From NCBI GenBank assembly GCA_018268695.1, contig JAFDWD010001121.1, positions 124,001 to 188,000 on the forward strand: a stretch of 64,000 nt of DNA. Direction: 5' to 3'. Source of the DNA: Actinomycetota bacterium. Its GTDB lineage: Bacteria; Actinomycetota; Thermoleophilia; Solirubrobacterales; 70-9. The notes beneath the pieces are model-generated. The model saw only the letters and a program-made list of their open reading frames with translations, searched no databases and was not told where the DNA came from. Each line of letters begins with the position of its first letter. Within the stretch, counting starts at the first letter, position 1. A program made the translations under genes and the position numbers. Positions 11,730 through 57,791 of this stretch are shown here, in pieces.

Positions 11730-11772
11730 CTGGCGGCCCTCCGCGGCCGACGGGGAATGCCTCGCCCGCGGA

Positions 11773-13358: not shown

Positions 13359-13364
13359 CGAGCC

Positions 13365-16124
13365 TCACCTGCTGAGCCAGTCGCGGACCCGCGAACGCCG
13401 ACGCGGGCGAGGGACGCCGGGCTCCTCGGGGTCCTCGGCGGGACGCCATTCACCGCTGGGGGGACGGTCCGGGATCTCCGCGCCCTGCCGGCGGTCCCCG
13501 GCCGCCTCGCCAGGGGCGCGCTGTCGACGCAGACCGCTGGTCGGCCGGCGCTGGTCGCCACGGGTGCGCACGGGCCGGTGGAGGTCGACCTGCTCGAGGC
13601 GCGCGGCCGCCAGCTCGCCGCTCGCCGAGCGCGCCTCCGCCACTCCGGCTGCGATCGCGTCACGGCCCTCCGGGGTGGCCGGATCCCGGCCCGCGGCCTG
13701 GGCCCGCCACCGATGCTCGGGTGCATCGAGTGGCAGGTGCGCCTCGCGTTGGATCGCCTCGCGCGCGCCCTGGAGCTCCGCCTTGCCGTGGGCGGGCAGC
13801 CCGGCTGCCTCGTTGGCGCGGACGTGGTCGACGAGGCGGCGGTCCGCGCGCGCCTGGGGGGCGGTCTCCTCGAGTCGGCGCTGCAGCTCGCTCAGCCGCA
13901 CCTGCTTGGCGCTCGCGCTGCGGTGGGCCTCCTCGGAGAGCGATCCTGGGTCATCACGTAGCGCCCGCACCTCGTGGTCCTCGCGCAGCGAGCGTGCCTC
14001 GCGCTCGCTGCGCTCGCGCGCGTCCAGGCGCTCGCCGGCGTTGGCCGTCGCCACGTCGAGCCGTTCGTGCGCCTGGCGATCGAGGCCCCGCTCGGCCCCT
14101 TCCTGCCGCCTCCTCGTCTCGCGCTCGCTGCGCTGCACGGATCTCGCGCGATGCTCGGAACGGATGTTGCCGACCGCGCCGCTCGCCGCCTTGGCCACCC
14201 TGTAACCGAGGTATCCGCCTGCGAGGGTCCGGTAGAGACCGGTCCCCCGATCCCCTATCGGGTCGATCTGGAAGACGGCCAGGTACTTGTCCCGGGAGAG
14301 GAAGACCGCCCACCAGAAGGCCATCACCGCGACCAGGCCGAGTGGCGCCGAGGAGCCGCCGATCGCCGAGCCGAGGATGGTCGACCCGAGCAGGACGATG
14401 CCGAGCAAGGAGCTGTAGATCAGCTTCGCCACCACGGATCCGAGGAGAGACGTCGCCCAGCGGGTGAAGATCGCCCGACCGGTCTGCCCGAAGACGGGGA
14501 AGAACATCGCCAGCGGCGCGGCGAGGACGAGGACGAAGGCCGCCGCCGTGGCCGTCACCAGCTTCATCGCCAGCCAGAGCAACAGGAGGAGTCCGCCGAG
14601 CAGGCCGACGGCGAAGACCACCACCATCACCATCCGGGTCAGGACGCCCCCCCGGCCCTGCATCGAGACCTTGTCGGGCGCGTGGCCTTCGGAGCCGCCT
14701 CCGATGTCGAGCTGGGGGCCGATTTCGAGCGGCAGCCCGATGTGTTCGTCGGGTTCGCCGTTGTAGTAGTCCCAGAGCTTGTCTCGCGGTCCGCTCAGCG
14801 GGCTGAAGCGCAGGTAGAGGTCGCGGATCGTCGGCGCCGGGCCGAAGAGGCCCGAGAGGTCGTGGGCGAGGGCCGAGGTCGCCGCCGCGGGGGCCGCCGT
14901 CCCCAACCCGGCGAGCAGCTGCTGGGTGAACGCGTCCCCTTCGCCGAGGCCGCTGCGCGCGGCTTCGCGCGCCGCCTTCGAGGGTTCGGCGTTCATGCAC
15001 CAGCCGACCGAGCTGAAGTCCATCGCGCAGAACGGGACGGCGGTCATCTGGTTCCAGACCGCCCCCATCGCGTCGTTGTAGGAGCGGATCGGGGCGCCGG
15101 CGTTGCCCGAGGACGGGGCCGAGACGGCGACCAGCGAGGCGCTGTCGATCGCCCCCGCGAGGCGCCCGACGGTGTCGCGCGGGGAGTGGATGATCCAGAG
15201 AGCCCCGAGCATCATCGCCAGCGCCATCGCCATCCCCGCCAGCGTCTCCGCGGAGCGCCGGCGGACGATCCCGTTGTAGAGGCCCCAGCCGCCGAGGACG
15301 ACGAAGAGCGTCATCAGCCAGGGCGAGGTCAGCTGGTCGTAGAACCTCGTCAGCCCGGTCGAGATCTGCCCCAACATCCGGTTGTCGGTGAAGGGGCTGA
15401 GCGAGAAGGCGAACCCGAGTACGATCAGGCAGCCCTTCAGCATCATCAGCATTCCCAGCCAGACGACCGAGAGGATCTGCAGGACGAAGGAGACCGCCGG
15501 GACGAAGAGCGAGCTGATGAAGCCGCCCGCTTCGATGTGGATGTCCCAGCCGTAGTTGCCCACCGGATATTCGGCCTCGGGCGAGTGCGAGGAGCGGCAG
15601 TTGCGCACCTGCTGGGCCGAGAGCTTCCCCGCTTCACCGCAGAGCGGGTTGGTGATCCCGAGCACCGCGGTCGGGTCGAGCGAGCCGCCGTAGGGGACGA
15701 CCGGCGTCGGTGCAGCTTCCGCGGCCCCTTCGGCGCCCGTCGCGACCGCCGGTTCGGCCGGGCCCTTGCCCCGCCCTTCCTGGCCGCCGGACGCGACTTC
15801 GCCGCCTCGCCCCCCTTCGTCGGCTTCGCCGCCCACCCCGGCGCCGGGGCCGTGCGCGGCGTTGTAGGCCTGCCAGCGGGCCTCGCTCCAACGTCCGATC
15901 TTCCCTTCGCAGTAGGCGGGGTTTTCGGCGTCGGTGACGGGAGGGTCGAAATGCCCCCGGCAGACTTCGAACACCATCCCGGTGCCTCCGCGGTAGACCC
16001 GCACGAGGGTCACCGCGGGGTCGGCGTCGGCGAGCGGCGGCGCGGCCGTCGCCAGAAGCAGGGCGGTCAGAGCCGCGACGATCGCGAGGCGCCGGGCGAC
16101 GCCGGTTCGCTCATGCTGCCACAT
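13365..16124 (-). CDS. VirB6/TrbL-like polytopic membrane channel protein
   Basis: 919 residues. A signal peptide (1-34) and a periplasm-like region rich in Gly/Glu come first. A long membrane domain follows (about 200-655) with at least eight hydrophobic segments (for example FISSLFVPAVSFVLQILSVV and VVVFAVGLLGGLLLLLWLA). The tail (655-919) is hydrophilic, coiled-coil-prone and Arg/Glu-rich (AERGLDRQAHERLDVA). The start overlaps the end of the VirB4 gene by 14 bases. It should form the inner-membrane part of the conjugation channel, with the tail in the cytoplasm. Confidence 0.82.
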   Translation of the reverse strand: MWQHERTGVARRLAIVAALTALLLATAAPPLADADPAVTLVRVYRGGTGMVFEVCRGHFDPPVTDAENPAYCEGKIGRWSEARWQAYNAAHGPGAGVGGEADEGGRGGEVASGGQEGRGKGPAEPAVATGAEGAAEAAPTPVVPYGGSLDPTAVLGITNPLCGEAGKLSAQQVRNCRSSHSPEAEYPVGNYGWDIHIEAGGFISSLFVPAVSFVLQILSVVWLGMLMMLKGCLIVLGFAFSLSPFTDNRMLGQISTGLTRFYDQLTSPWLMTLFVVLGGWGLYNGIVRRRSAETLAGMAMALAMMLGALWIIHSPRDTVGRLAGAIDSASLVAVSAPSSGNAGAPIRSYNDAMGAVWNQMTAVPFCAMDFSSVGWCMNAEPSKAAREAARSGLGEGDAFTQQLLAGLGTAAPAAATSALAHDLSGLFGPAPTIRDLYLRFSPLSGPRDKLWDYYNGEPDEHIGLPLEIGPQLDIGGGSEGHAPDKVSMQGRGGVLTRMVMVVVFAVGLLGGLLLLLWLAMKLVTATAAAFVLVLAAPLAMFFPVFGQTGRAIFTRWATSLLGSVVAKLIYSSLLGIVLLGSTILGSAIGGSSAPLGLVAVMAFWWAVFLSRDKYLAVFQIDPIGDRGTGLYRTLAGGYLGYRVAKAASGAVGNIRSEHRARSVQRSERETRRRQEGAERGLDRQAHERLDVATANAGERLDARERSEREARSLREDHEVRALRDDPGSLSEEAHRSASAKQVRLSELQRRLEETAPQARADRRLVDHVRANEAAGLPAHGKAELQGAREAIQREAHLPLDAPEHRWRAQAAGRDPATPEGRDAIAAGVAEARSASGELAAARLEQVDLHRPVRTRGDQRRPTSGLRRQRAPGEAAGDRRQGAEIPDRPPSGEWRPAEDPEEPGVPRPRRRSRVRDWLSR

Positions 16125-18651
16125 CGGCGACCTCCGCCTCCTCGCCGGGCTGGGACGCGGCGCTGCGCGGCGGGGGCGTCCCGAAGAGCGAGAAGAGCCG
16201 CGGCTCGCAAGGGTCGATCTGCAGGGGCACCGACTGGCCGTCGATGTCGCGGTAGTAGAAGCGCCCTTCCCCGAGGGCCAGGAAGCGGCGGATGAGGGCC
16301 GGGTCGTCCTCGTCGAGGCGCTGCAGCCGGGCCGAGCGCTTCGCTTCCTCCTCGGTCTCGACCCCGCCCGAGAAGAAGGCGCCGATCAGATCCGCGACCT
16401 CCTCGGCGTCGACCACCTGCTGGGTGGAGAGCAGGAGGCTCAGGTTCTGCGAGCGGCTCCTGCGCGCCGCGTGGTCGAGCAACGACAGCCCGACCGCCGA
16501 ATCGAACAGGACATAGGCCTCGTCGAGCGCGATCACCGAGTGGCGGTCGGGGTCGCGGCCGCAGAGGTTCAGCGCGTACATCGCCACCAGCCGAAGGAGC
16601 GCCGAGCCGATCCGCTCCTCGGCGGTCATGTCGGAGCGCGGCGTGCCCGGCCGCGGCAGGATCAGGTTGCGGATCTGCAGGGAGATGACGCGGCTGGTCC
16701 CGACCTCGGCGACCTCGCGGCCGGGCAGCCCGTAGGCGAGCTTGGCGAGCCCGGCACCGGCGTGGACCGAGAGGGCCCGCCCGGCTTCGCGCGCCGTCTC
16801 GCCTCCCGCCTCGAGGAGATCGACCACCTCGCCGAGGACCTGTCCGCGCCCCTCCTCGGCGCAGACCGCCTCGACCGCGGCACTGATCTCGGTCTGCCAA
16901 GGGGGCGGGACCGGTGCCGGCAGCACCTCCATCGCGAAGCCGATGGCAGCCTCGGCCCGACGCTCGGGCGGGGCGATCCGCAGAGGGTCGATCAGGCCGC
17001 GGTAGCGCTCGTCGGGCGAGAGCACGATCTGCTCCATCTCGGCCGCCATCTCGGGGATCAGATGGAGCTTGTGGTCGGGGTGCTCGGGCGTCCCCTTGGG
17101 GTCGATGGCGACGATTGGCCCCGAGCCCTGCAGGAAGGCCTGGTAGGCCAGGAGCTCCATCGCCACCGTCTTGCCCGACCCCTGGGAGCCGGTGAAGAGG
17201 ATCGGCGGCGGCCGGTTCTGTTGGGAGGCCTCCGCCAGGTCGAGGCGGATCGGCTGGCGCGAGGCCGTCAGGGTGTAGCCGATGTAGGGGCCCATCTCCG
17301 AGCCGGCATGGCTGACCGCGGTCGGCACCATCGCCGCGACCTCCTCGGGCAGCAGGTGCTCGCGGTAGGCCGATAGCCCGAAGCGCTGGGCGGGCAGGGT
17401 GGAGAGGAAGACCTGGTGCTGGGCGCCGAGCGGGCGGTGCAGCTGGATCCGGGGACCGAGCTCGGCGCGCAGCTGCTCGATCCGCTCCTCGAGCTCCTCC
17501 TCGTCGCCCGCGGCGGAGACGACGTAGGAGAGGGTGCTCCGCAGGAGCGGCGGATGGTCGTTTCCGCCGAGGCGACGCTGCAGCTCCCGCGCCTCGGCCG
17601 GGCGCTCCTCGGCATCGGGCGAGGGACCGTGCTCCCCCGCGGTCTCCTCGCGCCACATCTGGTCGGCATCGACCATGCGCCGGCGGGCGAGCTTCTGCGC
17701 GTCGCGGTTGGCCAGGATCTCGCAATGCAGGCAGGCGTCGACCGGGAACTCGAGATCGAGCGGGGCAAACATCAGCTCGGCCTCGGCCCCGGGGAAGTCG
17801 CGGACCTCGGGCATCGAGCCGCAGACGAGCATCGCCTGCAGCGAGACCCCCTGCTCTGACTCGATCTCGAGGTGACGGGCCGCGATCCGCACCCGGTAGT
17901 CGGAGTGCAGGCGCAGGAGGTCCCATTCGGCCGGCTCGAAGCCCACCTCCTCCCCCCCGTCGGCGACGATCGCCAGCGCCTGAGGGCGGAAGTTCGAGTC
18001 CAGGACCGGCTCGCCAAGGCCGCGCACGTAGGCGTGGCGGACCAGCCATACCGCCTCGGAGGCGAGCGCACGCTCGCCCTCCACGCAGCCGAGGACGCGC
18101 TCGTGCGTACGCCGCTCGAGGCGTTCGAGCTCGACCAGCCTCGAGTGCCGGAGGCCACGCGGGTCCTCGATCCCGACCATGCCCGCGAAGCGCCTCCACA
18201 TCGACCCGACACCACCGTCGCCGAACAGCCCCGCGAGCCCGCCGCCGGCTTCCTGCAGGCGGACCGCCAGGTAGATGTCGGGTCGGACCGTCTCGCGGTC
18301 GGCGAGCACCCGCGCGTGGGAGCGCAGATGGGCCTCGAAGGCCTCGCGGCGGCGGCCGATCTCCTCCACCCCACCGTGTCGCCGGTCGAAGGTCTGCCAG
18401 GCCGAGGCCAGGTAGGCGCCGGTCGAGAAGCGACGGGCGACCCGCAGCACCTGGAAGTCGGCCCCGAGGCCGTGGACGAGCGCCTCCAGCTGCGCCATCA
18501 CCTCGAGCTTCCGGCCCACCGAGAGCCCGGCATAGCTCTGCGGGGCGAGGCGGTAGAGGCCCCAGGCGTCGCCCAGGTCCGAGCCGAAGACGATGTTCCC
18601 GTAGATGAACGCGGGCCGTGGACGCGGCGCGCCGAGGCGGGACGGGCTCAC
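16111..18651 (-). CDS. virB4: VirB4/TraC-type conjugation ATPase
   Basis: 846 residues from a GTG that overlaps the upstream stop (GTGA). The motor has Walker A FTGSQGSGKTVAMELL (near 488), VAIDPKGTPEH, Walker B SVIALDEAYVLFD (near 705) and a glutamine sensor LSTQQV, as in VirB4/TraE ATPases. The N-terminal half (about 1-440) is the membrane-associated VirB4 domain. It powers substrate transfer or pilus assembly at the inner membrane and is the most conserved marker of the system. Confidence 0.9.
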   Translation of the reverse strand: MSPSRLGAPRPRPAFIYGNIVFGSDLGDAWGLYRLAPQSYAGLSVGRKLEVMAQLEALVHGLGADFQVLRVARRFSTGAYLASAWQTFDRRHGGVEEIGRRREAFEAHLRSHARVLADRETVRPDIYLAVRLQEAGGGLAGLFGDGGVGSMWRRFAGMVGIEDPRGLRHSRLVELERLERRTHERVLGCVEGERALASEAVWLVRHAYVRGLGEPVLDSNFRPQALAIVADGGEEVGFEPAEWDLLRLHSDYRVRIAARHLEIESEQGVSLQAMLVCGSMPEVRDFPGAEAELMFAPLDLEFPVDACLHCEILANRDAQKLARRRMVDADQMWREETAGEHGPSPDAEERPAEARELQRRLGGNDHPPLLRSTLSYVVSAAGDEEELEERIEQLRAELGPRIQLHRPLGAQHQVFLSTLPAQRFGLSAYREHLLPEEVAAMVPTAVSHAGSEMGPYIGYTLTASRQPIRLDLAEASQQNRPPPILFTGSQGSGKTVAMELLAYQAFLQGSGPIVAIDPKGTPEHPDHKLHLIPEMAAEMEQIVLSPDERYRGLIDPLRIAPPERRAEAAIGFAMEVLPAPVPPPWQTEISAAVEAVCAEEGRGQVLGEVVDLLEAGGETAREAGRALSVHAGAGLAKLAYGLPGREVAEVGTSRVISLQIRNLILPRPGTPRSDMTAEERIGSALLRLVAMYALNLCGRDPDRHSVIALDEAYVLFDSAVGLSLLDHAARRSRSQNLSLLLSTQQVVDAEEVADLIGAFFSGGVETEEEAKRSARLQRLDEDDPALIRRFLALGEGRFYYRDIDGQSVPLQIDPCEPRLFSLFGTPPPRSAASQPGEEAEVADVAA

Positions 18652-19280
18652 TCGATCACCACCTCGCCGCCCCGAGGCACCGAGATCACCTTGCCCCGCA
18701 GCATCGCCGCGCCGGGGCGCCGCCGGACCCGGTAGCGCCGCGCCCGCGCCAGGCGCCGGCCGGGCTCCCTGACCCACGGAGGCACCCCCTCGGCCCGCAC
18801 CTCGCCGGGATATCGGAAGGTCAGCTGGGCGGGGCCCCGCACGCGGCCGGGCACCGGGAAGGACTCGCGGGCGTCGAAGGCGATCGTGATCTCCGCCACC
18901 GGGACTATCGCCGCACCCCGGGGCGGACAGGGCTCGAGGCCGGCGAGGTCGCGAGGGGCCAGGCGCCAGCCGATCAGCGAGGCGAGGGCCTGGTGGGGCG
19001 GGCGACCGTCGACCCGTCCCTGCATCAGGACGAAGGCCCCGGCCAGCGGCAGTCCGAAGAAGGAGATCAGCGGCCCCCAGACGGCGACGAGTGCCCCCAG
19101 GGCGGGGAGCCGCGACACGACGACGAGCGCGAACTCGAGCGCCAGGAAATAGCCGATGCCGCGGAGCGGCACTCCGTGCGGGTAGGGGATCCGCCAGCGA
19201 TCGAACTTGTAGAGCCGGCGCTCGATCCGGAAGACGCGGCGGTAGCCGCGTAGCTGGATGCCTCGCGACCGGTCCATCAC
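18648..19280 (-). CDS. TcpE-family conjugation membrane protein
   Basis: 210 residues. GYRRVFRIERRLYKFD is the N-terminal signature of TcpE proteins, followed by two membrane segments (about 43-57 and 68-84) and a polar region (VDGRPPHQALASLIGWRL). The C-terminal 100 residues form a beta-rich cytoplasmic or external domain. TcpE is a membrane component of the Tn916/pCW3-type conjugation apparatus. Its stop is coupled to the VirB4 start. Confidence 0.78.
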   Translation of the reverse strand: MMDRSRGIQLRGYRRVFRIERRLYKFDRWRIPYPHGVPLRGIGYFLALEFALVVVSRLPALGALVAVWGPLISFFGLPLAGAFVLMQGRVDGRPPHQALASLIGWRLAPRDLAGLEPCPPRGAAIVPVAEITIAFDARESFPVPGRVRGPAQLTFRYPGEVRAEGVPPWVREPGRRLARARRYRVRRRPGAAMLRGKVISVPRGGEVVIE

Positions 19281-38626: not shown

Positions 38627-40411
38627 CTAGGCCGCGCCCGCCACCGCCGGCTCCGCCTCCTCGGGCTCCGGCTCGTCGTCGGGATCGGCCTCGGGCACCA
38701 GCTCGAGCGCCTCGCCCGAGAGGCCCGCACTCCGCGCGAGGCGGTCGCGGCCAGGCTCGGCGGCGGCCTCGGGCGTCGTGTAGAGGGGCGCCAGATCGGC
38801 GGCGCGCTCTTCGCCGAGGCAGGCCTCGGCCTCCCTCCACAGGGCCGCCGGCGCCAGCCCCTGCAGTTGCTCCTCGCGGCCGATGGTGTATGGGAGTTCG
38901 AGGTTCGGCCGCGCGGCCGCGCCGAGCACGCTCTGGTCGGCGAAGACGGCCGAGACGCACGCGGCGAAGATCCGGCCGATCAAGGCCGGGCCCGTGGATG
39001 CCTTGCGCCATTCGGCCTCGAGCAGGCCGGTGATCTCGTCGACCGAGGGGTATTCCTCGACCATCCTCGAGCCGCCCCGCCCGGGCCGGAAGTCGCGTTT
39101 GAGCCAGGCCTCGCGCACCACCCGGTGCCCGCCCGCGATCTCGCGGCCGAGGAACTCAAGGAAGAGCACCGCGATCACCCGGGCCTGGTCGAGTGAGACC
39201 TCGCCCTGGTAGTCGAAGCGGTTGGTCAGCTCGCGGTCCAGGTGGCCGTTGGCGGCCTTGCCCCGTAGGGCTTCCTCCTTGCGGCGTTCCCGGGCGGCCT
39301 TGGGATCCTCGCGTTCGGCCGGCATCTCGACGGGCTCACCGCGCTCGATCTCACCGCTGCTCTCGGCCAGCTCGGCGGCCGCCGCGCGCGCCCAGTCGGC
39401 GGCGAAGGCGGCGTCGACGAGGACACCAGAACGGCGGTAGGCCCCCTCGCGGTACTCGATCAACGCCTCGAAGGCGCGGGCCCGATCGGCATCTTCCTCG
39501 CTGACATGAGCGGTGCGTAGTTCGGCGGGGACCGATGCCAGGGAGCCGTCGATCGCCTCCAGCGCCTCCTCGACGCCGGGCACCTGGGACTCGGCGACGA
39601 GGCCCTCGGTGGCCGCGGTGGAGATCCGCGATGTGACCTCGTCGAGATTGACGGTGTCGTGGGGCCCGAAGGGGATCAGGAAAGCCCCGTCAGGCTGTTT
39701 CTCCTCGTCGGCGAGGCGTCGCAGCGCCGCGGCAGGGTCGCCGTCGAGCGCGGCCTGGCTCTGGGCCCCGCTCGCGACCCGCTCGGCGAGCGCCTCGGCG
39801 ACGCCGGGTGCCTTCGCGGCGATCGGCGCCAGGGTGGCCGCGTTCCGCAAGGTCAGCTCCCCCGCGGCGAGGCGCTCGCGCACCGGCTCGGGAAGCTCGA
39901 GCAGAGCCATGCGTGTCTCCGCCAGTTCATGGGTCATCCCGAGGTGGTCGGCCGCGCCCCCGAGGCTGAAGCCGAAGCGTGAGATCAGGCCCGCCAGGAG
40001 CATCGCCTCCTCGAGCGGGGTGAGTTTCTCGCGCAGCGCGTTCTCGGCGAACGCCATCGCCAGACGGGTCGGCTCGTCGACCTCCTCGTCGACCCCGAGC
40101 ACCATCGAGGGCACCCGCGGGCGCCCGGCCCGGCGGGCGGCGAGCCAACGCCGTTCGCCGGCGATCAGCTCGAAGTCCTCCTCGCCGAGTTCACGCACGA
40201 GGACCGTCTGCAGGGTCCCCATCCGCTCCGTCGAGGTCGTCAGCGTCGCCAGCGCCGGCTCCGAGGCGCTGCGGCGAGGGTTGGCGCCGGGCCTGATCCG
40301 GTCGACCGGCAGCCAGCGTAGGGGACGCTCGCGCTCCCCCATGCCGGCCTCGATCTGCTCCTGCCCCTCGATGTGGACCGGGGGCCTCTCCATCACGGTG
40401 GCGTTGCTCAT
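38627..40411 (-). CDS. ParB/RepB/Spo0J-like protein with long C-terminal extension
   Basis: 594 residues. ATG at 40411 is chosen because AGGAGG lies 5 bases upstream. The ParB N-terminal domain has LPVDRIRPGANPRR (near 33), IAGERRWLAARRAG (near 80, the GERR CTP-binding motif) and FAENALREKLTPLEEA (near 115). An HTH follows (GGAADHLGMTHELAETRMAL). The remaining 350 residues are not typical ParB. No ParA is adjacent. It may act in partition or, like other stand-alone ParB proteins, in DNA processing. It starts the block leading into VWA, MoxR and SNF2. Confidence 0.85.
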   Translation of the reverse strand: MSNATVMERPPVHIEGQEQIEAGMGERERPLRWLPVDRIRPGANPRRSASEPALATLTTSTERMGTLQTVLVRELGEEDFELIAGERRWLAARRAGRPRVPSMVLGVDEEVDEPTRLAMAFAENALREKLTPLEEAMLLAGLISRFGFSLGGAADHLGMTHELAETRMALLELPEPVRERLAAGELTLRNAATLAPIAAKAPGVAEALAERVASGAQSQAALDGDPAAALRRLADEEKQPDGAFLIPFGPHDTVNLDEVTSRISTAATEGLVAESQVPGVEEALEAIDGSLASVPAELRTAHVSEEDADRARAFEALIEYREGAYRRSGVLVDAAFAADWARAAAAELAESSGEIERGEPVEMPAEREDPKAARERRKEEALRGKAANGHLDRELTNRFDYQGEVSLDQARVIAVLFLEFLGREIAGGHRVVREAWLKRDFRPGRGGSRMVEEYPSVDEITGLLEAEWRKASTGPALIGRIFAACVSAVFADQSVLGAAARPNLELPYTIGREEQLQGLAPAALWREAEACLGEERAADLAPLYTTPEAAAEPGRDRLARSAGLSGEALELVPEADPDDEPEPEEAEPAVAGAA

Positions 40412-40462
40412 CGCCACCTCCTCTCATCTCGAAGTCGCGGCGCGCGGCGCCGCCTTGCTCTC

Positions 40463-42223
40463 TCAGCGGGCACCGAGGGCCTCGACCGCGACGCTGCCGA
40501 TCACCGCGGCGATCTCCAGGGGCACGCCGACGGAGACCAGTGCGCTCTCGCCGTGGGTGACGGGCTCGGAGCCGATCCCGATCGAGACCACGCCGCAGCC
40601 GCTCGCACGCAGCTCGCTGATGTTCCGCTCGCCGGCCTCGGCCCACGGCGCGGACACCCAGACGCCGTCGCCGACGAGGAACAGGAGCCGCGGCCGGCGG
40701 CGGTCAAACAACGGCAGCACCGCGCGCAGCAGCTCGATCCCCTCGCCGACATCCTCCGAGCCGCCGACGGCCGAGACCTCGGGCACCTCGCCGAGACGAC
40801 GGCCCGCCCGGCAGAGCAGCTTCGCCTCGTCGCCGAAGAGCGAGACCGCGGCCCGCCCGCCGACCTGCTCGACCGCCGTGTGGACCACCCAGGCGACCGA
40901 GGCGAGCGGTCCCTCGAATGGGCCCATCGAGCCCGAGACGTCGACCGCGATCCCGACCACCGGCTGCCATAGCTCGGCGAGGACGGTCCGCCGGGTGGCG
41001 AAGGCGAGGCCGCGGATCGGCGCCCCGCGCTCGAGCTCCGACGCCTGGCGCATCGCGCCGCGGCCCGAGAAGCGCCCGGGCGGGATGACACGCCCCTCGC
41101 GGACGAGGCGCTTGGAGCGCGCCTCCTGCAGGGCGTGGGCGAGGCGCCGGGCGGCCGTCCGCTCGATCGCGACCGGAGGCCGCCCGCCGGTCTCTGGGAT
41201 CCCGGGCCCGAGCCCGAAGCCGTGCCCTCGGAAGAGGGCCAGGCGCCTCGACGCCGCCGCTCCCCCCTCGGCGATCTCGCGGGCCAGCTTGCGCAGCTCG
41301 GGGTCGACACCGCCTTCTCGGGGGTCGAGTTCGACCGCGGCGGCGCGGGCGCTCCGCTCCGCGACGGCGAGTGGGCCGCTCGCCTCCTCCCAGCTGGGGG
41401 CATCGCCGTCTCCGGCGGCGCCACCTTCGCCTCCTTCGGCCTCCTCGCCGGGTCCCCCGCCCCCGGCGCCGCCGGCTTCCTCCTCCTCGGTCGGGGCGAG
41501 CTCGGCCAGGCGCCGGGCGCCCTCGGTCAGCGCCGCGATCGCGTCTCGGTCGGGCGCGGCGCAGACCTCGGCGACGATCTCCTTCACCGTCTCCAGGTCT
41601 TCGGCACCGAGAACGGTGGTGAAGCGCGCTTCGCTGTCGAGGACGTCGGCGGCACGCAGGTTGCCGGCGGGCACGCGCGAGCAGATCAGGACCGCGCCCT
41701 TCACGGCCCGGGCGCGGCTCATCGGCGCCAGCGGGTCCTCGGGTCGATGCTCGAGGAGGAGCTTGGTGATCGCTGCGCGCAGGTAGCGCGCGACCCGCGG
41801 GACCCCTTCGATCAGCCGAGCCTCCATGCGGCCCTCCTCGAGCCACTTCGCGCGTTCGAGCAGCTCTTCGGGGATCTCCTGCATCGCCCGGGGCGTCGGG
41901 GTGTGTTTGACGTGCCCGCACTCGTGGAAGAGGACGCCGAGGACGACGACGAGCGCCTTCAGCTGGTCGCCGTCGGGTTCGGCGGGGATCTCCTCCGGCG
42001 TGCAACCGAGCAGCTCGCCGTCGAGCAGGATCACGTTGGTGAGCCGGTTGACGAGGCCCGCGACCGGCGCCGAGGCCTTCGGGTAGCACTTGACGAGGAC
42101 CCCGCCGACGATCGAGAGCGCCGCCTTGGTCAGCGCGGCGCTCGCCTGGCCCCAGCCGCCCGCCATGGCCGAGGGCTGGACACGTTCGGCGGGCAGCCGC
42201 CGGAACGCCTCCTTCCAGCCCAT
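40463..42223 (-). CDS. Zincin-like peptidase domain plus VWA domain protein
   Basis: 586 residues. LFHECGHVKHTPTPRAM (near 98-106) is an HExxH-type zinc-peptidase motif. The middle is acidic, with EEEEAGGAGGGGPGEEA-type low complexity. The C-terminal VWA domain has the MIDAS signature VDVSGSMGPF (near 426), with FLVGDGVWV later. ATG at 42223 follows the MoxR stop by 2 bases. This is the typical partner of a MoxR-type AAA ATPase, as in CbbO/CobT- and RavA/ViaA-type pairs, which remodel or insert metal into target proteins. The peptidase motif suggests it may cut or only bind metal. Confidence 0.8.
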   Translation of the reverse strand: MGWKEAFRRLPAERVQPSAMAGGWGQASAALTKAALSIVGGVLVKCYPKASAPVAGLVNRLTNVILLDGELLGCTPEEIPAEPDGDQLKALVVVLGVLFHECGHVKHTPTPRAMQEIPEELLERAKWLEEGRMEARLIEGVPRVARYLRAAITKLLLEHRPEDPLAPMSRARAVKGAVLICSRVPAGNLRAADVLDSEARFTTVLGAEDLETVKEIVAEVCAAPDRDAIAALTEGARRLAELAPTEEEEAGGAGGGGPGEEAEGGEGGAAGDGDAPSWEEASGPLAVAERSARAAAVELDPREGGVDPELRKLAREIAEGGAAASRRLALFRGHGFGLGPGIPETGGRPPVAIERTAARRLAHALQEARSKRLVREGRVIPPGRFSGRGAMRQASELERGAPIRGLAFATRRTVLAELWQPVVGIAVDVSGSMGPFEGPLASVAWVVHTAVEQVGGRAAVSLFGDEAKLLCRAGRRLGEVPEVSAVGGSEDVGEGIELLRAVLPLFDRRRPRLLFLVGDGVWVSAPWAEAGERNISELRASGCGVVSIGIGSEPVTHGESALVSVGVPLEIAAVIGSVAVEALGAR

Positions 42224-42225
42224 CG

Positions 42226-43188
42226 CTATTCGACCCGCAGGGGATCGAGCGCCACGCCGCCCGTGACGTGGGCCTGGAGGGCCTCGCTCATCGCCACCCG
42301 CGACTCCTCGGGGCAGAGCCCGAGCAGGTTCCGGGCCGCCGTCAGCGGGTCGAAGACCGCCGCGACCGCCTTGAAGGCGAGGAGCTCGCGCAGCTGCGGG
42401 GCCCACGTCGCGGGTCCCGCCTCTCCCGGGGCGATGCCGGCGAGCGGGTCCTGCGCCTCGAACTCGCGGTTCAGCTTCTCGGCCGCCGACACCGCGTCGA
42501 CCGGGACGCCGAGGCGCCTGGCGGTCGCCGCGTCGAACCCGACGTAGACGTGGATCGCGCAGCGCGAGGCGAGCGCTTCGGAGAACGTCGTGCCGGGGAG
42601 GTTGGGGTTGTAGGCGATGATCGCGCCGAAGCCCTCCTCGGCCTCCACCACCTCCCCGCCGCACTCGTTCAGGGTCAGCCGGCGGCGGGCGTCGAGGGCG
42701 GGGAAGACGCGGCTCTGCACCCTCGGGTCACCCTGGGTGATGTCGTCGCCGAACCAGAGCTTGCCCTTCCGGAGCGCGCGGGTCAGCGAGCCGTCGCCCC
42801 ACTCCCATCCCTTCTCGGGGGCGGGGAAGAAGCTGCCGGTGATGTCCTCGACCTGGGTGCCCTCCGAGAACTCCTGGGTGATCACCCGGCCCTCGCCGAG
42901 CGCGGCCTCGACGAGGGTCGTCTTGCCGGTGCCCGGCGGGCCGTAGAGGCAGACGTTGAAGCCCGCCTCGATCGCCTTGCGGATGAACTCGACGTCGTCC
43001 ATGCCGGCGATCCGTCGGACGGTGTAGGGCTCGCGGCCCGCGCCGAGCGGGATGGTGCGTCCTTCCGGGGATCCTCCTTCGGAGCCCCCAAAGTCGGTTG
43101 GTTCGATGTCGACGCCGGCGGCCCTGGCCGCCATATGCCGAAGCGTGCTGACACCGCCCGTCTCCGGGCGTGCGGTTGCGGTGGTCAA
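42226..43188 (-). CDS. MoxR/CbbQ-family AAA+ ATPase
   Basis: 320 residues from a TTG with GAGAGGAG upstream. Walker A is LYGPPGTGKTTLVEAAL (near 79). The Walker-B region reads KLWFGDDITQGDPRVQS (near 145), with a GDD in place of the usual DE. The sensor-1 segment IIAYNPNLPGTTFSEALASR and the MoxR insert TGSFFPAPEKGWEWGDG follow. With the downstream VWA protein it forms a two-gene chaperone pair. A perfect 7-bp hairpin (GGGCGCC, 43219-43239) lies just upstream in the gap to the helicase gene. Confidence 0.87.
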   Translation of the reverse strand: MTTATARPETGGVSTLRHMAARAAGVDIEPTDFGGSEGGSPEGRTIPLGAGREPYTVRRIAGMDDVEFIRKAIEAGFNVCLYGPPGTGKTTLVEAALGEGRVITQEFSEGTQVEDITGSFFPAPEKGWEWGDGSLTRALRKGKLWFGDDITQGDPRVQSRVFPALDARRRLTLNECGGEVVEAEEGFGAIIAYNPNLPGTTFSEALASRCAIHVYVGFDAATARRLGVPVDAVSAAEKLNREFEAQDPLAGIAPGEAGPATWAPQLRELLAFKAVAAVFDPLTAARNLLGLCPEESRVAMSEALQAHVTGGVALDPLRVE

Positions 43189-43291
43189 ATCGTGCTCCTC
43201 TCTGAAGCTGTGATGGCAGGGCGCCGCCGGAGGGCGCCCACGGTCGGTCTGCGCCCGGGCGTCAACGCCGGGCGTGGTAGGTGGGCCGCGC

Positions 43292-45901
43292 TCAGGCGGC
43301 GCGCCGGACGGTCTTCCGCCGCGCGGCGAAGATCTGGGCGGCGACCTTCATCTTGGTCGAGGCGCCCTCGCGATCGGCGAGCTCGGTCGCGAGTCCGGCG
43401 AACTGCCGCGCCAGCTCCTCCGAGCCCCCCTCGCCGGGGGCCGCGCCGGCGTCTTCGCCGCGGTTGAGGACGCCGTCGACCTCGGCCGCGCGGGGGATCA
43501 GGATGCCCGCCCGGTGCAGCTCGCAGGGATAGTTGAGGAGGGCGAGCAGGACGCCCACCGAGTCGAACTCCGAGCCGGTCCGCGTCGCCCGCCCGATCCG
43601 CTGCTCGAAGGGCCGCGGCGTCCAGGGCAGGTCGTAGTGGCCGACCAGGGAGGCCGGCAGGTTGTGGCCCCGCCTGCCGACCGGGCTCATCAGCATCACC
43701 GGGAACTCGCCGAGCCGGAAGGAGCGCTTGAGGCGGGCCGCCTCGCGCTCCCCGATACCGCCGATGAAGAGCGGCGCCTCGACCCCGTGGGTATCGGCGA
43801 GCTCGCGGGAGAGCAGCCGCAGGAGCTCGACCGACTCGGCGAAGAGCAGCGTCTTCTCCCCGTCGGCCGCGGCCGCGGCCGCGGTCCCCGCGATCCAGGC
43901 CCGCTTGCTGGGGCCGGTCCTGACCACGGCGTCGATCAGGCCTTCGGACTCCAGGAGCGCGGCGGCGACCGCCTTCGAGGCGCGCAGTGCCTCGGCGTCG
44001 GAGGCGGCGAGGAGCGCGACCTCGGTCGCCGAGAGCAGGAGGCCCCGGGTCGAGGCCATCCGCCTCCGCAGGACGGCCAGCTCGGAGTCGTCGGGCGCCA
44101 GGCCGGCGGCCCGCTCGACCTGCTCGCGCAGGGTGCCGAAGAGCTGCGCGATCCGCTCCTCGGCGGCGTCCAGCAGCGCCAGCTCGGCGAGCGTGGGGTC
44201 GATGATCTTGAACTCCGGGTCGTCGAGCTCGGGCATGTAGTCCTTCATGTCCTCGCGGGTGAGCCGGACCATCGTCGGGCCCATCGCCCGGCGCAGGCGG
44301 CGCTGGGAGACCTCGTCGAAGGTCGAGTAGCGGCTCGAGAGCGGCTTCTCGCGAAGCGCCTCGCGGTCGTTGCGGGCAAAGGCCTCCAGGGCGTCGTATT
44401 CCTGGTTGGTTCTGCCACGTGGGGTCGCCGTGATCAGCCCCGCGACCTTGGCCCGCTCGCGCAGGCGCCACAGTGCCCGGGCAAGCTGCGTGCCTGGGTT
44501 GGCGAGCGCCTCGTCGGCCTCCTCGACGACTAGGTCGTCGTAGGTCAGGACGCGCAGGTCCTCGACCGCGGTGCGGACCTGGTCGAAGGTCGCCATCACG
44601 ATCCCGGGCTCCGGCCCGAGCTGGCGATCGAAGGCGATCAGCCCGGGCGCGATCCGCCGGTCCTCGGCGACGTGCACGGCGACCCCCGGCCAGAACTTCG
44701 GGATCTCCCCCTCGACCCATTCGGAGCGGATGTAGCGGGGCAGGGCCACGCACATCCGGTAGGCCGCGAGCTCGGCGGCCTTGCCGCGGCAGGCGATCAG
44801 GGTCATCGGCGTCTTGCCGGTCCCGACTTTCGAGAAGTTCAGCATCCCGACCTCGGTCGCCCGGTGCCGGCCGACCGCGATCCGCTGCGGGGGGAGCAGG
44901 TCGCCGTCGAGGGCCGGCCGCGCCGCCGCCATCGCCAGGACGTCGGCGACTTCGGGATCGAGGACGACCTTGGCGCCCCCCTCCCTGGCGGCCCTGACCT
45001 CGCGCCTCGCCTCCTCGGCGCTCACCTCACGCGCGATCGCCAGCGGCCAGTCGCTCGCCTGGCCATGGACGACCTCGGCGAGGCCGGGCAGGCCGGGGAC
45101 CCGGCGGGCGACCAGGTGCCCGCGGGCGAGGACCTCCAGCGGCTCGAGGATCCCTTCCGGATCGTCGACCTCCACCCCGGCCTCGCTCATGTCGTGGGCG
45201 AGCTCGAGGGCCTCGTGGGCCAGCAATGCCTCGGGCGGGCGCGGGGTCTCATAGGGCCAGGCGTTCACCGGGCACCCCTCCGGGAGCCAGCCGACCGGGC
45301 GGGTCAGGATCCGGCCGAAGAGGCCGCCGGCGTCGTTGGCGCGGAGGACGACCGCCATCTGCGCGAGCGGGCCCTCCTCGCCGTGCTCGCACACCCCGAC
45401 GCGCGGCCTCGCGGAACCGAGCTTGCCGAGCTCGGCGGCGAGCTTCTCCTGCCGGGTGGCGACGCGGCGGTTCTGCGCCGCCCAGGCGCCCTTGGTGTAG
45501 GGGATCTCGGGCGGGATCAGGTCGAGGACCGCCTGCACCGCGCGACTGTCGGCGCCGGGGACCTGGAAGCTGCGCTCGCTGCGCCAGCCGCCCGCGCGGG
45601 CCGTGATCCCCAGCGCGAAGACCTCGCGCACGTAGGGACGGACCAGGACCGAGCGCCGCAGCAGCTGGTCGGGGCCCAGCGCGGGGCGCTCGACCCCTGC
45701 CAGGGTGAAGCGGAAGCCGAGCGGCGCCTCGTCCCGTGGGTGGGCACTGCCGAAGCGCGCCGCCAGCTCGCGCTGGGCCGCGGCGGCTTCGCGGGCGCGT
45801 TGCTCACGGCGCCGCTCACCTGCCGCCCGGCCGCGCGCGGGTGGCGTCGGCGCGGGCATACCGGGCAGGCTGGGCGCCGGAGCGGTTGGGGTCTTGCTCA
45901 A
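43292..45901 (-). CDS. SNF2-like DNA helicase/translocase
   Basis: 869 residues. TTG at 45901 is chosen for the GGAGGTG 4 bases upstream and the TTGA overlap with the preceding stop. Motif I is NFSKVGTGKTPMTLIACRG (near 356), motif II LVVEEADEALANP (near 457; EEAD instead of DEAH), motif III ITATPRGRTN and motif VI EQRIGRATRTGSEFD (near 765). The N-terminal 300 residues have no known domain. SNF2 proteins move along double-stranded DNA. Such enzymes are common in defence systems (DISARM, Dpd-type) and in phage genomes. Confidence 0.86.
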   Translation of the reverse strand: MSKTPTAPAPSLPGMPAPTPPARGRAAGERRREQRAREAAAAQRELAARFGSAHPRDEAPLGFRFTLAGVERPALGPDQLLRRSVLVRPYVREVFALGITARAGGWRSERSFQVPGADSRAVQAVLDLIPPEIPYTKGAWAAQNRRVATRQEKLAAELGKLGSARPRVGVCEHGEEGPLAQMAVVLRANDAGGLFGRILTRPVGWLPEGCPVNAWPYETPRPPEALLAHEALELAHDMSEAGVEVDDPEGILEPLEVLARGHLVARRVPGLPGLAEVVHGQASDWPLAIAREVSAEEARREVRAAREGGAKVVLDPEVADVLAMAAARPALDGDLLPPQRIAVGRHRATEVGMLNFSKVGTGKTPMTLIACRGKAAELAAYRMCVALPRYIRSEWVEGEIPKFWPGVAVHVAEDRRIAPGLIAFDRQLGPEPGIVMATFDQVRTAVEDLRVLTYDDLVVEEADEALANPGTQLARALWRLRERAKVAGLITATPRGRTNQEYDALEAFARNDREALREKPLSSRYSTFDEVSQRRLRRAMGPTMVRLTREDMKDYMPELDDPEFKIIDPTLAELALLDAAEERIAQLFGTLREQVERAAGLAPDDSELAVLRRRMASTRGLLLSATEVALLAASDAEALRASKAVAAALLESEGLIDAVVRTGPSKRAWIAGTAAAAAADGEKTLLFAESVELLRLLSRELADTHGVEAPLFIGGIGEREAARLKRSFRLGEFPVMLMSPVGRRGHNLPASLVGHYDLPWTPRPFEQRIGRATRTGSEFDSVGVLLALLNYPCELHRAGILIPRAAEVDGVLNRGEDAGAAPGEGGSEELARQFAGLATELADREGASTKMKVAAQIFAARRKTVRRAA

Positions 45902-46523
45902 GGTGCACCTCCGTGTGTCTTGGGGGCCCGGACGGGCGCCGAGGCGCCCCGGCCCGAGGTATGGATTCCGGCGACGGGCGACGGCGCCGTCGCGATGGGC
46001 TCGGCGTCGATCGGTATCTGCAGGCGCTCCAGGAGCGCCGCCGCGAAGGGCAGGGCGTCGGCGACCCGCGGCTCGAGCCATCCGCGGCTGTTCTCAAGCC
46101 ATCCTTCGGGGCCTGAGAGCGACGGCTTGCACTGGCCCCGGCGCGACGGTGGGGCCAGGTCAGACCGTCGTTCCCAGGGCCGATCTGTCTGATGCAGTCC
46201 CACTGCGCCGCGAGGGCGCGGTCGGGATCTGCCCCCTCGAGGCGCTCGTCGAGCCAACAACGTGCGTCGAGGAAGCGCCCGGCGGTCCTCACGAAGACAT
46301 GGCCCTGGACCTCGTCCTTCTCGCACCCCTCGGTCTGGCGGTCGAAGGCGAAGACCAGCTGGACGGGGGTGAGCCGCCGGAGCGCTTCGGCGAACGAGTG
46401 GCAATGCCCGTTGGTGAAGACGTGTTCGGCGTCGGAGTCGAGCACGCCGTATCGCAGCTCCCTGACTTCGGGGAAGCCGAAGAGGATGTCGAAGCAATCC
46501 CACTCGGAGACCGGGGCGCTCAT
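45898..46523 (-). CDS. Hypothetical protein carrying one frame shift
   Basis: The first frame starts MSAPVSEWDCFDILFGFPEV and continues to IGPGNDGLTWPHRRAG. The second gives CKPSLSGPEGWLENSRGW and LPFAAALLERLQIPIDAE to the stop. Adding one G to the GGGG run near 46145 joins them. Both ends are coupled to neighbours (ATGA at 46523, TTGA at 45898-45901), so both frames are used by one gene. Either a base-calling error, a recent mutation or a programmed shift. No family recognised. Confidence 0.55.
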
Positions 46524-47167
46524 CAGGCGATCAGCTCCGAGGCGGCGTCGAGCGCCAACTGGGGCGGCGCCGCGACCAGCCGCAGGCCCTCGGCGAGGTA
46601 GGCGTCGCGCCAGCGGACCCACTTGGTCCCGTCGACCGAGTCACAGCCGATCGCCTTCGCGTAGGCGATGCGCCTGGCGGAGTTGACGCGGCCCATGTGG
46701 ACCCAGGTGCCGCGGCGCCTGGCCTCGGCTACCAGGGCGCCTGCATCGGCGCCGAGCTTCCATGTCGTCGAGCCCCCGATGAACAGGGCGTCGATCCGCG
46801 GCCACGCGGTGTCGAGCCAACGGCCGAGGCCCTCGAGGCCGTCCTGGGCCACGAGGGCGACCGGGAGGCCGCGCCTGGCCGGCGCCGAGCACCAGCGCTC
46901 GAACCGACGCGCGGTCTCGTAGGCGTCGCCGACCACGTCGGGCACGGTCACGAAGAGACGCCCCTCGATGCCCCGCAGCCGATCGAGCATCGCGCAGTAG
47001 GCGTCGATGTCGAGGCCCTGGAAGCAGTCGTTGTCGGCCGCCCACGGCACACCCCGCGCGGCCGTGTCGGCGATCCGCGGGAAGTGCCGGGGCTGCACGA
47101 GGCGACCGAGATTCGGATGCTTAAAGGCGAGCATCTGCGCCTCGGCCTGCGTCGCGAGCAGCAGCAT
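46523..47167 (-). CDS. TGT/DpdA-like base-exchange enzyme (phage type)
   Basis: 214 residues. The order of motifs matches a compact TGT fold: WAADNDCFQG (near 42, like DSGGFQ of tRNA-guanine transglycosylase with the base-binding Asp), FVTVPDVVGD (near 71), VALVAQDG (near 102), FIGGSTTWKLG (near 129, like GGLAVGE) and IGCDSVDGTKW (near 171, like the nucleophile region DLFDC). Proteins of this size occur in actinobacterial phages as DpdA-like enzymes that exchange guanine for a 7-deazaguanine in DNA. Its job in this element is inferred; no preQ0-synthesis genes are in the window. Coupled at both ends. Confidence 0.72.
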   Translation of the reverse strand: MLLLATQAEAQMLAFKHPNLGRLVQPRHFPRIADTAARGVPWAADNDCFQGLDIDAYCAMLDRLRGIEGRLFVTVPDVVGDAYETARRFERWCSAPARRGLPVALVAQDGLEGLGRWLDTAWPRIDALFIGGSTTWKLGADAGALVAEARRRGTWVHMGRVNSARRIAYAKAIGCDSVDGTKWVRWRDAYLAEGLRLVAAPPQLALDAASELIA

Positions 47168-48760: not shown

Positions 48761-49654
48761 TCAGGCCGGGATCGGACCGCCGCCGACCGGGCACCGGTCC
48801 CAGTGCGGGCAGCCGTCGCCACCGACCCGCGGCGCGCACCACCAGCCGAAGTCGGGCGCGAGCGGCCACTCTCCGGGCTCGGTGGCGTCGAGATGGGCGA
48901 TCATCCGCGCCACGCGGGCCACCCGGCGCTGGAAGCCGAGCAGCTGGCCGGTGCTGCGCGGAGCGGGCACGACCCGCCAGCGCGGGCCCTCCTCGGGCCG
49001 CTCGAGGGTCGCCGCGTGGAAGACGAACTCCGCCGGGTTCCGCTCGGCCCAGCGCATGAACGTCTGTGCGGTGGCCTGCAGGTCCCGGTAGGCGCGCTCC
49101 TCCTTCACCGTCGAGCGACCGAACTTGAGATCGGCCAGCAGCCGCGGACACTCGAGGTCGAAGTAGCAGACGAATCGCCACTCCTGCCCGGCGTCGAAGC
49201 GGAAGCTGGCACGGCGCTCGACCGAGACCGGCTCGACCGACGGGGCGATCTCGGTCAGGTAGTCGGCGACGGCACCCCGACACTGGACCTTGCCGAACTC
49301 CGGGTCGTCCTCGAGGCCGAGGACGGTTTCGCCGATCTTCGCGGCGAAGAGCACGAGCACGAGGTCGTCAAGCTCTGCCGTGCCCGGCGCCCGCCCCGCG
49401 ATCCGCCCGGCGAAGTAGTGGGCGAGGGTGTCGCCGACCACCGAGCCGAGCGTCATCGAGAGGTTCGGCGGCACCTTCTCCCCGAGCAGGTAGGTGCGGC
49501 GGAAGGCCTCCGGGCACTTCTCGAAGGCCCGCAGGCTCGCCGGCGAGAGCGACTTCAGCCGCAGCCGGCGGCCGTAGCGTCGCGCCGGGAGCTGAAGCGG
49601 GACCGAGAGCGGGTCGACGGGGGCGGAGGCGCTCGGCCTCGCGATCGCACTCAT
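48761..49654 (-). CDS. Cas4/AddB-like PD-(D/E)XK nuclease with a probable Fe-S cluster
   Basis: 297 residues. ATG at 49654 overlaps the preceding stop (ATGA). LSPASLRAFEKCPEAFRRTY (near 31-50) gives the first Cys; the active site strand is CPRLLADLKFGRS (near 171-178, D-x-K). The C-terminus has WWCAPRVGGDGCPHWDRCP, three further Cys, so the four-Cys pattern of Cas4/AddB nucleases is complete. A typical partner of a single-strand annealing protein; RecT lies 5 kb upstream in the same direction. Confidence 0.78.
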   Translation of the reverse strand: MSAIARPSASAPVDPLSVPLQLPARRYGRRLRLKSLSPASLRAFEKCPEAFRRTYLLGEKVPPNLSMTLGSVVGDTLAHYFAGRIAGRAPGTAELDDLVLVLFAAKIGETVLGLEDDPEFGKVQCRGAVADYLTEIAPSVEPVSVERRASFRFDAGQEWRFVCYFDLECPRLLADLKFGRSTVKEERAYRDLQATAQTFMRWAERNPAEFVFHAATLERPEEGPRWRVVPAPRSTGQLLGFQRRVARVARMIAHLDATEPGEWPLAPDFGWWCAPRVGGDGCPHWDRCPVGGGPIPA

Positions 49655-50505
49655 CCCGACCAGCCTGCCGCCGCCGGCGGCTCGCCCGAGCGCGCCGCCT
49701 CGATCACCTCGGCGATCGAGCAGTCCAGGCGGAAGCGGTGTCCGGTGGCTTCTTCGACCCGCAGGTACTCCGGGGCGAGCTCGGGATTCAGCCGGGCCGA
49801 GAGGACGAGGGCCGGTCTCGAGGCGAGGATGCAGAAGCGGCAGCTGAGCCGTGGCATCCCGGCGGCGTAGGCGGGGTGGATCAGGTCGGCGATACGGCTG
49901 GCCTCGACCCGCTCCCAGACCTCCTCTACCGACCACTCGTGCAGCGGCAGGAAGTCGGTGACCTCACGCCGCCCGTTGCTGGCCCCCTGGTCGACGCGGA
50001 GCGCCGGGCGCCTGGCCCGGGCCGGTGACTCCTGGGCGCGCATCCCCATCACGTTCAGGAGACGCACCCGCTCCCGACCGCCCTGCTCGCGGCGCTCGCC
50101 GACCAGCCGGGTCATCAGCCGCCGCAGCGGTCCGCGCTTCAGATCCGAGGAGCACCAGCGCTGCCGGGCGCTCGGCCACATCCCCCGGCGCTCGACGCGT
50201 CCGAGCAGGTCGGGGCCGGAGGCCGAGACGACGAAGAAGCGCAGCCCGTAGCGCTCGGCCTGCTCACGGGCGAGCTCCCTGGTCCCCGCCCACTCGGCGC
50301 GGCCGAGGTCGGCATGGCCGACGACGACCCGGTCGAGGACGCCCTGGCGGGCCGCCTCCGTGGCGATCACGTCGAGGGTCGCCATGCTGTCCTTGCCCGC
50401 CGAGGAGTTCACCAGGACGACGTCGTAGGCACCGAGCTCGGCGAGCGTGCCCGCTGCCGCGCTGGGGGTGGTGAAGAGCTGCGCCTGACCGGCGGCGCCG
50501 CTCAC
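49651..50505 (-). CDS. PAPS-reductase/DndC-like PP-loop protein
   Basis: 284 residues from a GTG coupled to the upstream stop (GTGA). VLVNSSAGKDSMATLDVIAT (near 30-48) is the PP-loop that binds ATP. RQRWCSSDLKRGPLRRLM (near 111) and LSCRFCILASRPALVL (near 215) supply Cys as in phosphoadenosine-phosphosulfate reductase-like and DndC proteins. Members in phages and plasmids are of unknown substrate; DndC works in DNA phosphorothioation with DndD/E, which are not seen here. Coupled to the nuclease gene. Confidence 0.78.
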   Translation of the reverse strand: MSGAAGQAQLFTTPSAAAGTLAELGAYDVVLVNSSAGKDSMATLDVIATEAARQGVLDRVVVGHADLGRAEWAGTRELAREQAERYGLRFFVVSASGPDLLGRVERRGMWPSARQRWCSSDLKRGPLRRLMTRLVGERREQGGRERVRLLNVMGMRAQESPARARRPALRVDQGASNGRREVTDFLPLHEWSVEEVWERVEASRIADLIHPAYAAGMPRLSCRFCILASRPALVLSARLNPELAPEYLRVEEATGHRFRLDCSIAEVIEAARSGEPPAAAGWSG

Positions 50506-57711: not shown

Positions 57712-57791
57712 CTCACCTCCTTTCGGGGTGGTTCGGGGCGCATCGCAGGCACGAGGTGTCGCCGACACGACGCCGGCTTCCCCTCCCTCGC

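Follow-up and report, generated by a model that had tools for sequence, protein, structure and literature searches.

A recurrent ParB, zincin-VWA, MoxR and SNF2 gene module, with an apparently optional TGT-like gene, on a presumed actinobacterial conjugative element

We analyzed a 64,000-nucleotide stretch of DNA from an Actinomycetota bacterium (NCBI GenBank assembly GCA_018268695.1, contig JAFDWD010001121.1, positions 124,001 to 188,000 of the forward strand), here called the window, and within it a compact gene block at 38627-47167. The window makes 64 kb of a contig of 200,147 bases total visible, leaving the other 136 kb outside view, and is taken as a piece of a conjugative element in a high-GC actinobacterium. 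A preliminary description, made from the letters alone, had placed six genes in the block, and all six are present there, on the minus strand (Table 1). In order of transcription they encode a protein resembling tRNA-guanine transglycosylase (TGT), an orphan, an SNF2-type protein, a MoxR-type ATPase, a protein that joins a predicted zincin domain to a VWA domain (zincin-VWA), and a ParB-like protein. The TGT-like stop overlaps the orphan ATG (46523) by one base, and the MoxR and VWA genes are spaced by 2 bases. Pfam support is clear for ParB, MoxR and SNF2, weak for VWA, and absent for the TGT-like protein and the orphan.

The nearest relative of the block is locus L001, a 59,804-base contig in a metagenome-assembled genome of the Actinomycetota (genome G001), whose block proteins are 65-90% identical to those of the window and whose tested type IV secretion proteins are 88-94% identical. 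The window ParB matches ParB_N (7.5e-16) and HTH_ParB (3.7e-8) in Pfam and has the AGERR and ENxxR motifs, while its residues 225-596 match 54 proteins (itself counted) at 56-100% identity. The SNF2 protein matches Helicase_C at 5.5e-13 and SNF2-rel_dom at 1.9e-5, the latter with bits just under the cut-off. No Pfam or PHROG match was found for the orphan, which is intact at 163 amino acids in L001 (10642-11130); in the window its second half sits in a different frame, and the reading frame is possibly a broken gene there, or an assembly error.

Table 1. Features of the block and its surroundings in the window
Feature	Position	Strand	Basis or remark
ParB-family protein, 596 aa, ParB_N + HTH + long C-terminal part	38627..40417	-	Pfam, motifs
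Zincin-VWA: N-terminal HExxH domain, C-terminal VWA with MIDAS	40463..42223	-	motifs, Foldseek
MoxR-type AAA+ ATPase, VWA partner	42226..43188	-	AAA_5 3.3e-18; Walker A GPPGTGKT
SNF2-type DNA translocase/helicase	43292..45901	-	start TTG 45901 or ATG 45859
Orphan reading frame	45816..46523	-	coupled to TGT-like stop
TGT/DpdA-like TIM-barrel protein, 214 aa, PHROG 15826, optional member	46523..47167	-	fold + profile match
PD-(D/E)XK nuclease, Cas4/RecB-like by motif	48761..49654	-	Pfam PDDEXK_1 1e-7
PAPS-reductase-like protein	49651..50505	-	PF01507 2.8e-11; BrxP model 3.8e-18
RecT annealing protein	54418-55665	-	Pfam
UvrD helicase	55780-57768	-	Pfam
Type IV secretion gene set	7665..18777	-	Pfam; relatives on G001 contig

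Four of the block's genes recur as a set. Of 399 genomes in the class to which G001 belongs, seven have the VWA protein, and each of the seven has at least one VWA locus where SNF2, MoxR and ParB lie alongside VWA on one strand. Gaps inside this module are no larger than about 1.2 kb, the largest, in G356 between VWA and ParB, holding two small open reading frames. By identity the module falls into four lineages (the window with G001; G356; G158 with G235, G381 and G372; and G387), across which the block proteins are 20-40% identical; the G381 and G235 regions have an identical gene set and matches. The order is SNF2-MoxR-VWA-ParB in three lineages and MoxR-VWA-SNF2-ParB in G387. A PD-(D/E)XK nuclease gene lies within 5 kb of SNF2 in five of the seven module genomes; a search out to 8 kb from the G387 VWA gene showed none, and the G372 contigs are too short to say.

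The profiles used for linkage drew on the copies in the window, G356, G158 (or G235) and G387, and thus partly on the same loci that were tested, while pairwise BLAST values, each computed against a set of 20 proteins, are independent of them. Against G356, G158, G235 and G387, respectively, these E values are 2.8e-133, 1e-58, 9e-52 and 3e-29 for SNF2 and 9e-50, 1.5e-6, 9e-7 and 9e-9 for ParB. Pairwise identities of the four proteins over seven loci correlate at r 0.98-1.0, a descriptive value from few and related loci, and because they rise and fall together, the pattern is as for co-inherited genes. Run on 103 other TGT-like loci (1.49 Mb), the same profiles matched VWA 0, MoxR 1, SNF2 2, ParB 6 and PD-(D/E)XK 0 times, so that the four-gene linkage, at 7 of 7 genomes versus these sparse matches, exceeds chance. 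Among the 46 closest VWA homologues (59 listed, 13 distant ones left out), 24 apparently share a contig with one of 54 ParB homologues, and among 119 TGT-like homologues, from the best 120 of 4,894, one apparently does so with VWA and two with ParB; here equal size of the longest contig listed per cluster was taken as an identical contig, and sharing can be missed. The preliminary description had treated ParB, VWA, MoxR and SNF2 as one unit, and in other genomes of the class these genes do stay together. Its wider expectation that the whole block would do so failed for the TGT-like gene, which is absent from five of the seven module genomes. The block thus looks like a four-gene core to which the TGT-like gene is an optional extra.

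The MoxR-VWA pair is more widespread than the module. In a second class, the VWA protein occurs in 19 of 394 genomes (E 1e-15). Of 20 loci read there, 18 have MoxR adjacent on the same strand, one has it on the opposite strand at a distance of about 7.5 kb, and one lacks it. Among 396 genomes drawn from across the phylum, three have VWA: G001, plus G421 and G654, in which MoxR-VWA stands alone; the order and phylum searches added nothing beyond G421 and G654, both without ParB and SNF2. MoxR-VWA is also present on named plasmids of Pseudonocardia, Streptomyces and Streptosporangium, and an annotated WGR-domain gene directly precedes the pair on two of three plasmids (L106 12585-15744, L109 12548-15786). 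Two Rhodococcus plasmids have VWA with MoxR on the other strand 2-3 kb off, and one of them, PD04, also has a second, adjacent pair. Two viral contigs carry the pair, found with the VWA alignment; on viral contigs, single-sequence scans with VWA, SNF2 and MoxR gave no relative, nor did the SNF2 alignment. For SNF2 there was no relative in the phage collection and one in the plasmids. As a gene set, MoxR-VWA thus recurs on mobile elements, and its coupling to ParB and SNF2 is special to the window's class among the genomes seen.

This distribution bears on one alternative, that the block is part of an element backbone whose genes have separate functions and are simply kept close: ParB would be a KorB-like regulator, SNF2 would act with the PD-(D/E)XK nuclease, RecT and UvrD in replication or recombination, and MoxR-VWA would be a chaperone-protease for the type IV secretion system or a metal protein. 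The 18 second-class loci with the pair adjacent and neither ParB nor SNF2 present agree with such independence, as do the different gene order in G387 and a VirB4-like gene near MoxR-VWA in G654. Against it stands the four-gene adjacency itself, which is kept in four of four lineages at 20-40% identity, with matching divergence, and we hold the backbone explanation to be rather unlikely.

Two further claims of the preliminary description, a peptidase motif in the VWA protein and the pairing of MoxR with VWA, are borne out. In all 33 aligned VWA sequences, the HExxH motif (H107, E108, H111) and the metal-ion-dependent adhesion site (MIDAS) motif DxSxS (D435, S437, S439) are invariant. Across 38 loci, HExxH is found in 34 (at another position in L186, missing in L190, L192, L194 and L211) and DxSxS in 37. 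The MoxR gene adjoins the VWA gene in most loci read. The Pfam VWA_CoxE match of the protein, 0.0016, lies below cut-off, and PDB sequence searches with two family alignments returned nothing meaningful; by Foldseek, the PDB entry closest to the VWA model is the VWA domain of NorD in complex with NorQ (1.1e-7).

For the fourth member, the strength of the assignment varies with lineage. The window, G001 and G356 have a firm ParB identity; in G387, where ParB_N scores 0.00025 and so falls below cut-off, it is fair, and for the G158 group it is probable. The ParB profile also matches the ordinary ParB of G158, and this genome has, about 8 kb upstream of its block, a ParA-ParB pair of its own. The block protein shares ParB_N and HTH with the ParB of ParABS systems, and ParA was not found in the window (best E 0.20) or in the G001 contig pieces. 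The lack of ParA there and the separate pair in G158 argue that the block ParB is probably not the partition protein.

The TGT-like gene has a different distribution. It occurs once each in G001 and G387, that is, in two of nine VWA genomes and two of the seven with the full module, and in both it lies at the upstream edge of the module on the same strand. In the tree the G387 and window rows are not sisters, though both fall in a single group of 19 rows that also includes viral ones; the G387 sequence is shortened, having been trimmed to an internal Met. We fetched 104 TGT-like loci, 24 of them from genomes and 80 from viral contigs (the best of 169 relatives there), and only L001 has the other block genes (window proteins, E 1e-4). 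The only other matches to the 20 queries in these loci were PAPS reductase in L002, L007 and L089, ParB in L048, SNF2 with UvrD in L021, and RecT in L074. The two cases suggest a repeated association with the module, and the TGT-like protein looks like a separate, roaming phage-type enzyme of base-exchange kind.

Its relationship to known transglycosylases appears remote. The model is a confident TIM barrel (predicted local distance difference test score 94.9). Of the 50 Foldseek rows shown, 37 are TGTs (best value 2.3e-5), many being crystals of a single enzyme, and the two top rows are pyruvate kinases; VIA-align has no TGT among 50 rows and does not favor TGT. None of 53 family members matches the TGT Pfam family PF01702, and since no Cys is invariant or nearly so, the family is without the zinc site of host TGT. 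Profile-profile comparison (hhalign) with eight phage DpdA-type proteins gave a probability of 91% and E 9.7e-7 over 137 columns, aligning D45/D63, D77/D105, GG131-132/GG153-154 and D179/D206, of which we take D45 and D179 to correspond to the two catalytic aspartates of TGT. The same comparison with host TGTs gave E 0.028 and probability 1.7%, a short alignment in the expected register; DpdA versus host TGT also failed, so that small alignments limit the host-TGT comparison. By profile, the protein is a remote DpdA relative. Its family is the one annotated in phages as 'DpdA-like tRNA-guanine transglycosylase' (4,894 of 7,999 candidates scored), for which we know of no assigned substrate. Arthrobacter phage Sonali (L208) carries both a family member, gp81 (6001-6618), and an annotated DpdA-type gene, gp87 (8988-9878), the latter with ParB-like, QueC, QueD, QueE and FolE genes, which suggests distinct functions for the two families. 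Sonali gp81 and GreaseLightnin gp55 are 44-50% identical to the window protein, and, unlike the block, the regions read in these phages have no SNF2, MoxR or VWA annotated.

The preliminary description had proposed, with the 7-deazaguanine Dpd systems as its model, that the element marks its own DNA and turns the helicase and the chaperone pair on unmarked DNA. In such a system the TGT-like enzyme would insert a 7-deazaguanine, ParB would act like DpdB and SNF2 like DpdE. Several features speak for it: the remote homology to DpdA with its aligned aspartates, the position of the TGT-like gene next to the module in two lineages, the ParB-like genes that adjoin DpdA-type genes in phages Sour and Sonali, and a ParB-like ATPase, DpdB, in Dpd systems (excerpt of PMC12839542). 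When PADLOC and NCBIfam models for DpdB-DpdK were run on the block proteins, only DpdE matched, at 23.9 and 34.7 bits (cut-off 500) and over the generic helicase part; it is the best NCBIfam match of SNF2. Besides the rarity of the TGT-like gene among module genomes, the supply of preQ0 weighs against such marking. With FolE, QueD, QueE and QueC of two phages as tblastn queries, the best E in the window was 0.034 (64 of 200 kb in view), and nothing reached 0.01 in the G001 contig pieces. A host TGT is clear in seven of nine VWA genomes, and in a QueC-family search eight of nine exceeded the Pfam 22-bit cut-off. A plausible QueC was seen only in G235 and G381 (71 and 32 bits within a single frame of 200 codons), the other genomes scoring 20-30 bits; the matches in G001 (best 23.8 bits), G158, G356 and G387, none above 24-30 bits, we judge to be other PP-loop enzymes. 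The preQ0 transporter PF02592 was found in none of five genomes, G001 included, versus 9 of 14 controls, other importers, QueD, QueE and FolE not having been searched there. De novo preQ0 synthesis in the nearest known host of the window is thus unlikely. Moreover, phage Orion, which has dpdA only and a host without the pathway, has DNA free of 7-deazaguanine, according to an excerpt of PMC6884629. Dpd-like marking is therefore unsupported, and we consider a Dpd-like modification or guarding role highly improbable.

The surroundings of the block fit a mobile element. The type IV set includes a 1,354-amino-acid protein with a Replic_Relax domain and, besides it, genes with SLT, VirB4-like AAA_10 and (below cut-off) TrbL/VirB6-like matches (Pfam). 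Replic_Relax lies C-terminally in a large protein of this set (window 7665-11729), and in G158 (L142 6921-9872) it is fused to the coupling-protein domain TrwB_AAD_bind. Type IV genes share a contig with the block in the window, G001, G158 and G387. Upstream of the block lie small genes and genes for the PD-(D/E)XK nuclease, a PAPS-reductase-like protein, RecT, UvrD and DprA. The nuclease has a conserved C-terminal Cys cluster, WxC...C..CP.GGG (also in L120 15986-16456 and L123 3796-4749), suggestive of a Cas4/AddB-like Fe-S nuclease. In both the window and L001, the TGT-like gene has the PAPS-reductase-like gene close by, a possible sulfur-modification partner, and relatives of the latter occur in 3 of 103 other TGT-like loci (L002 6851, L007 8267, L089 3845). 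DprA (DNA_processg_A 4e-66) and a ComM/YifB-like gene, judged by eye, lie near UvrD (58935-61476) and would be unusual company if part of a conjugative element. On the other side, a piece of an HsdM-like adenine methylase (37108-37956; 80% in L001) adjoins the block and is a possible self-marking enzyme. Upstream of the block in G387 (L141) are a 1,760-amino-acid methyltransferase-plus-SNF2 helicase protein (7507-12789) and a C5-cytosine methylase (2528-4705).

Such neighbors bring in defense or entry exclusion of the MoxR-vWA conflict type, in which a vWA-fused peptidase effector would stay off until an invader is sensed, SNF2 sensing or tracking foreign DNA, ParB marking self and the PD-(D/E)XK nuclease cutting. 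SNF2 proteins are common in defense (DISARM, BREX, Zorya, Dpd), and because of this, and because conflict systems combining MoxR, vWA and peptidase have been described, it is the strongest rival. The best curated SNF2 matches include the defense helicases DrmD, BrxH and DpdE, the NCBIfam ones far under their cut-offs, and the adjoining HsdM-like methylase points the same way. Ternary MoxR-vWA systems with peptidase effectors are published (excerpts of PMC7159879 and PMC12839542). Compared with the former, the block shares MoxR, vWA and a peptidase domain but adds ParB and SNF2; none of the four third components (VMAP, iSTAND, FtsH, beta-propeller) was recognized in the block proteins scanned, with model coverage unchecked, so that a divergent one could escape. 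The peptidase of the block stays within a single conserved family and does not vary as a swapped effector would, the MoxR-VWA pair is also found on plasmids and viral contigs, and PADLOC gave no match at 0.1 for ParB, VWA, the orphan or the TGT-like protein. We view a defense role as unlikely, though less so than the other rivals.

Our tentative preference, quite possible but short of probable, is that the block is a conjugative-element module that remodels and cuts DNA-bound proteins, a mechanism and targets drawn from family knowledge and linkage. The four-gene linkage comes with active-site motifs kept and often with a nearby PD-(D/E)XK nuclease. ParB would load onto element DNA as a clamp and anchor the module, and the SNF2 motor would travel along duplex DNA. 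The VWA domain would bind a protein met there, the MoxR ring would pull and twist its VWA partner, as NorQ does with NorD, and the zincin domain would cleave the bound protein, candidates being relaxase-DNA adducts, host nucleoid or restriction proteins, and stalled complexes. Cleavage could then clear the way for processing by RecT, UvrD and the PD-(D/E)XK nuclease, or for transfer. A more specific and distinctly doubtful version is a DNA-anchored AAA+/zincin protease machine in which ParB clamps would guide both the SNF2 translocase and a MoxR-VWA-zincin complex, and stuck proteins would be stripped off element DNA and cleaved, by analogy a bacterial counterpart in logic of the DNA-protein-crosslink repair pathway SPRTN/p97. 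Such a machine might be aimed at the relaxase adduct, or at host nucleoid proteins after transfer.

Several observations weigh against this proposal of a remodeling and cutting module. Neither SNF2 nor ParB is found in any of the 20 second-class loci, several of which are on short contigs, and an SNF2 relative without the module sits on a Miltoncostaea oceani plasmid; in most MoxR-VWA loci, those of G654, the plasmids and the viral contigs included, ParB and SNF2 are missing, so the pair is able to function with no DNA-acting partner. Pfam (at 0.01) does not recognize ParB in the block ParB-like proteins of G158 and G235, and when whole genomes were searched with the window ParB, other ParBs came up in G158, G235 and G387 but the copy in the block was missed. 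A parS consensus has 0 matches within 3 mismatches in the DNA in view, and repeated exact 12-base palindromes, of 6 kinds versus 1 to 5 in five simple shuffles, with none repeated at 16, are uninformative. The zincin call combines the motif with predicted helices, the whole-protein fold search having been filled by VWA matches so that the N-terminal domain, residues 27-260, was barely tested. Ten queries for type IV secretion genes gave nothing on the 82-kb contig of G235 or on two G356 contigs.

MoxR-VWA pairs are chaperones of metal enzymes and parts of conflict systems. The block resembles NorQ-NorD, RavA-ViaA and CoxD-CoxE in its adjacent MoxR and VWA genes and differs from them in the invariant N-terminal HExxH of its VWA protein, its mobile-element location and its DNA-acting neighbors. 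The constant peptidase family further distinguishes it from the ternary conflict systems (excerpt of PMC7159879), and with Dpd it has TGT-like, ParB-like and SNF2-like genes in common. In the searches made of open-license papers, the gene combination was not found described; only PMC12839542, in excerpt, came up.

The four-gene module is now separable from the question of 7-deazaguanine. A MoxR-VWA pair that bears a putative peptidase domain and, in one actinobacterial class, is accompanied by a ParB clamp and by an SNF2 motor would link AAA+ remodeling directly to DNA, and would give a testable idea of how large elements may handle the proteins on their DNA.

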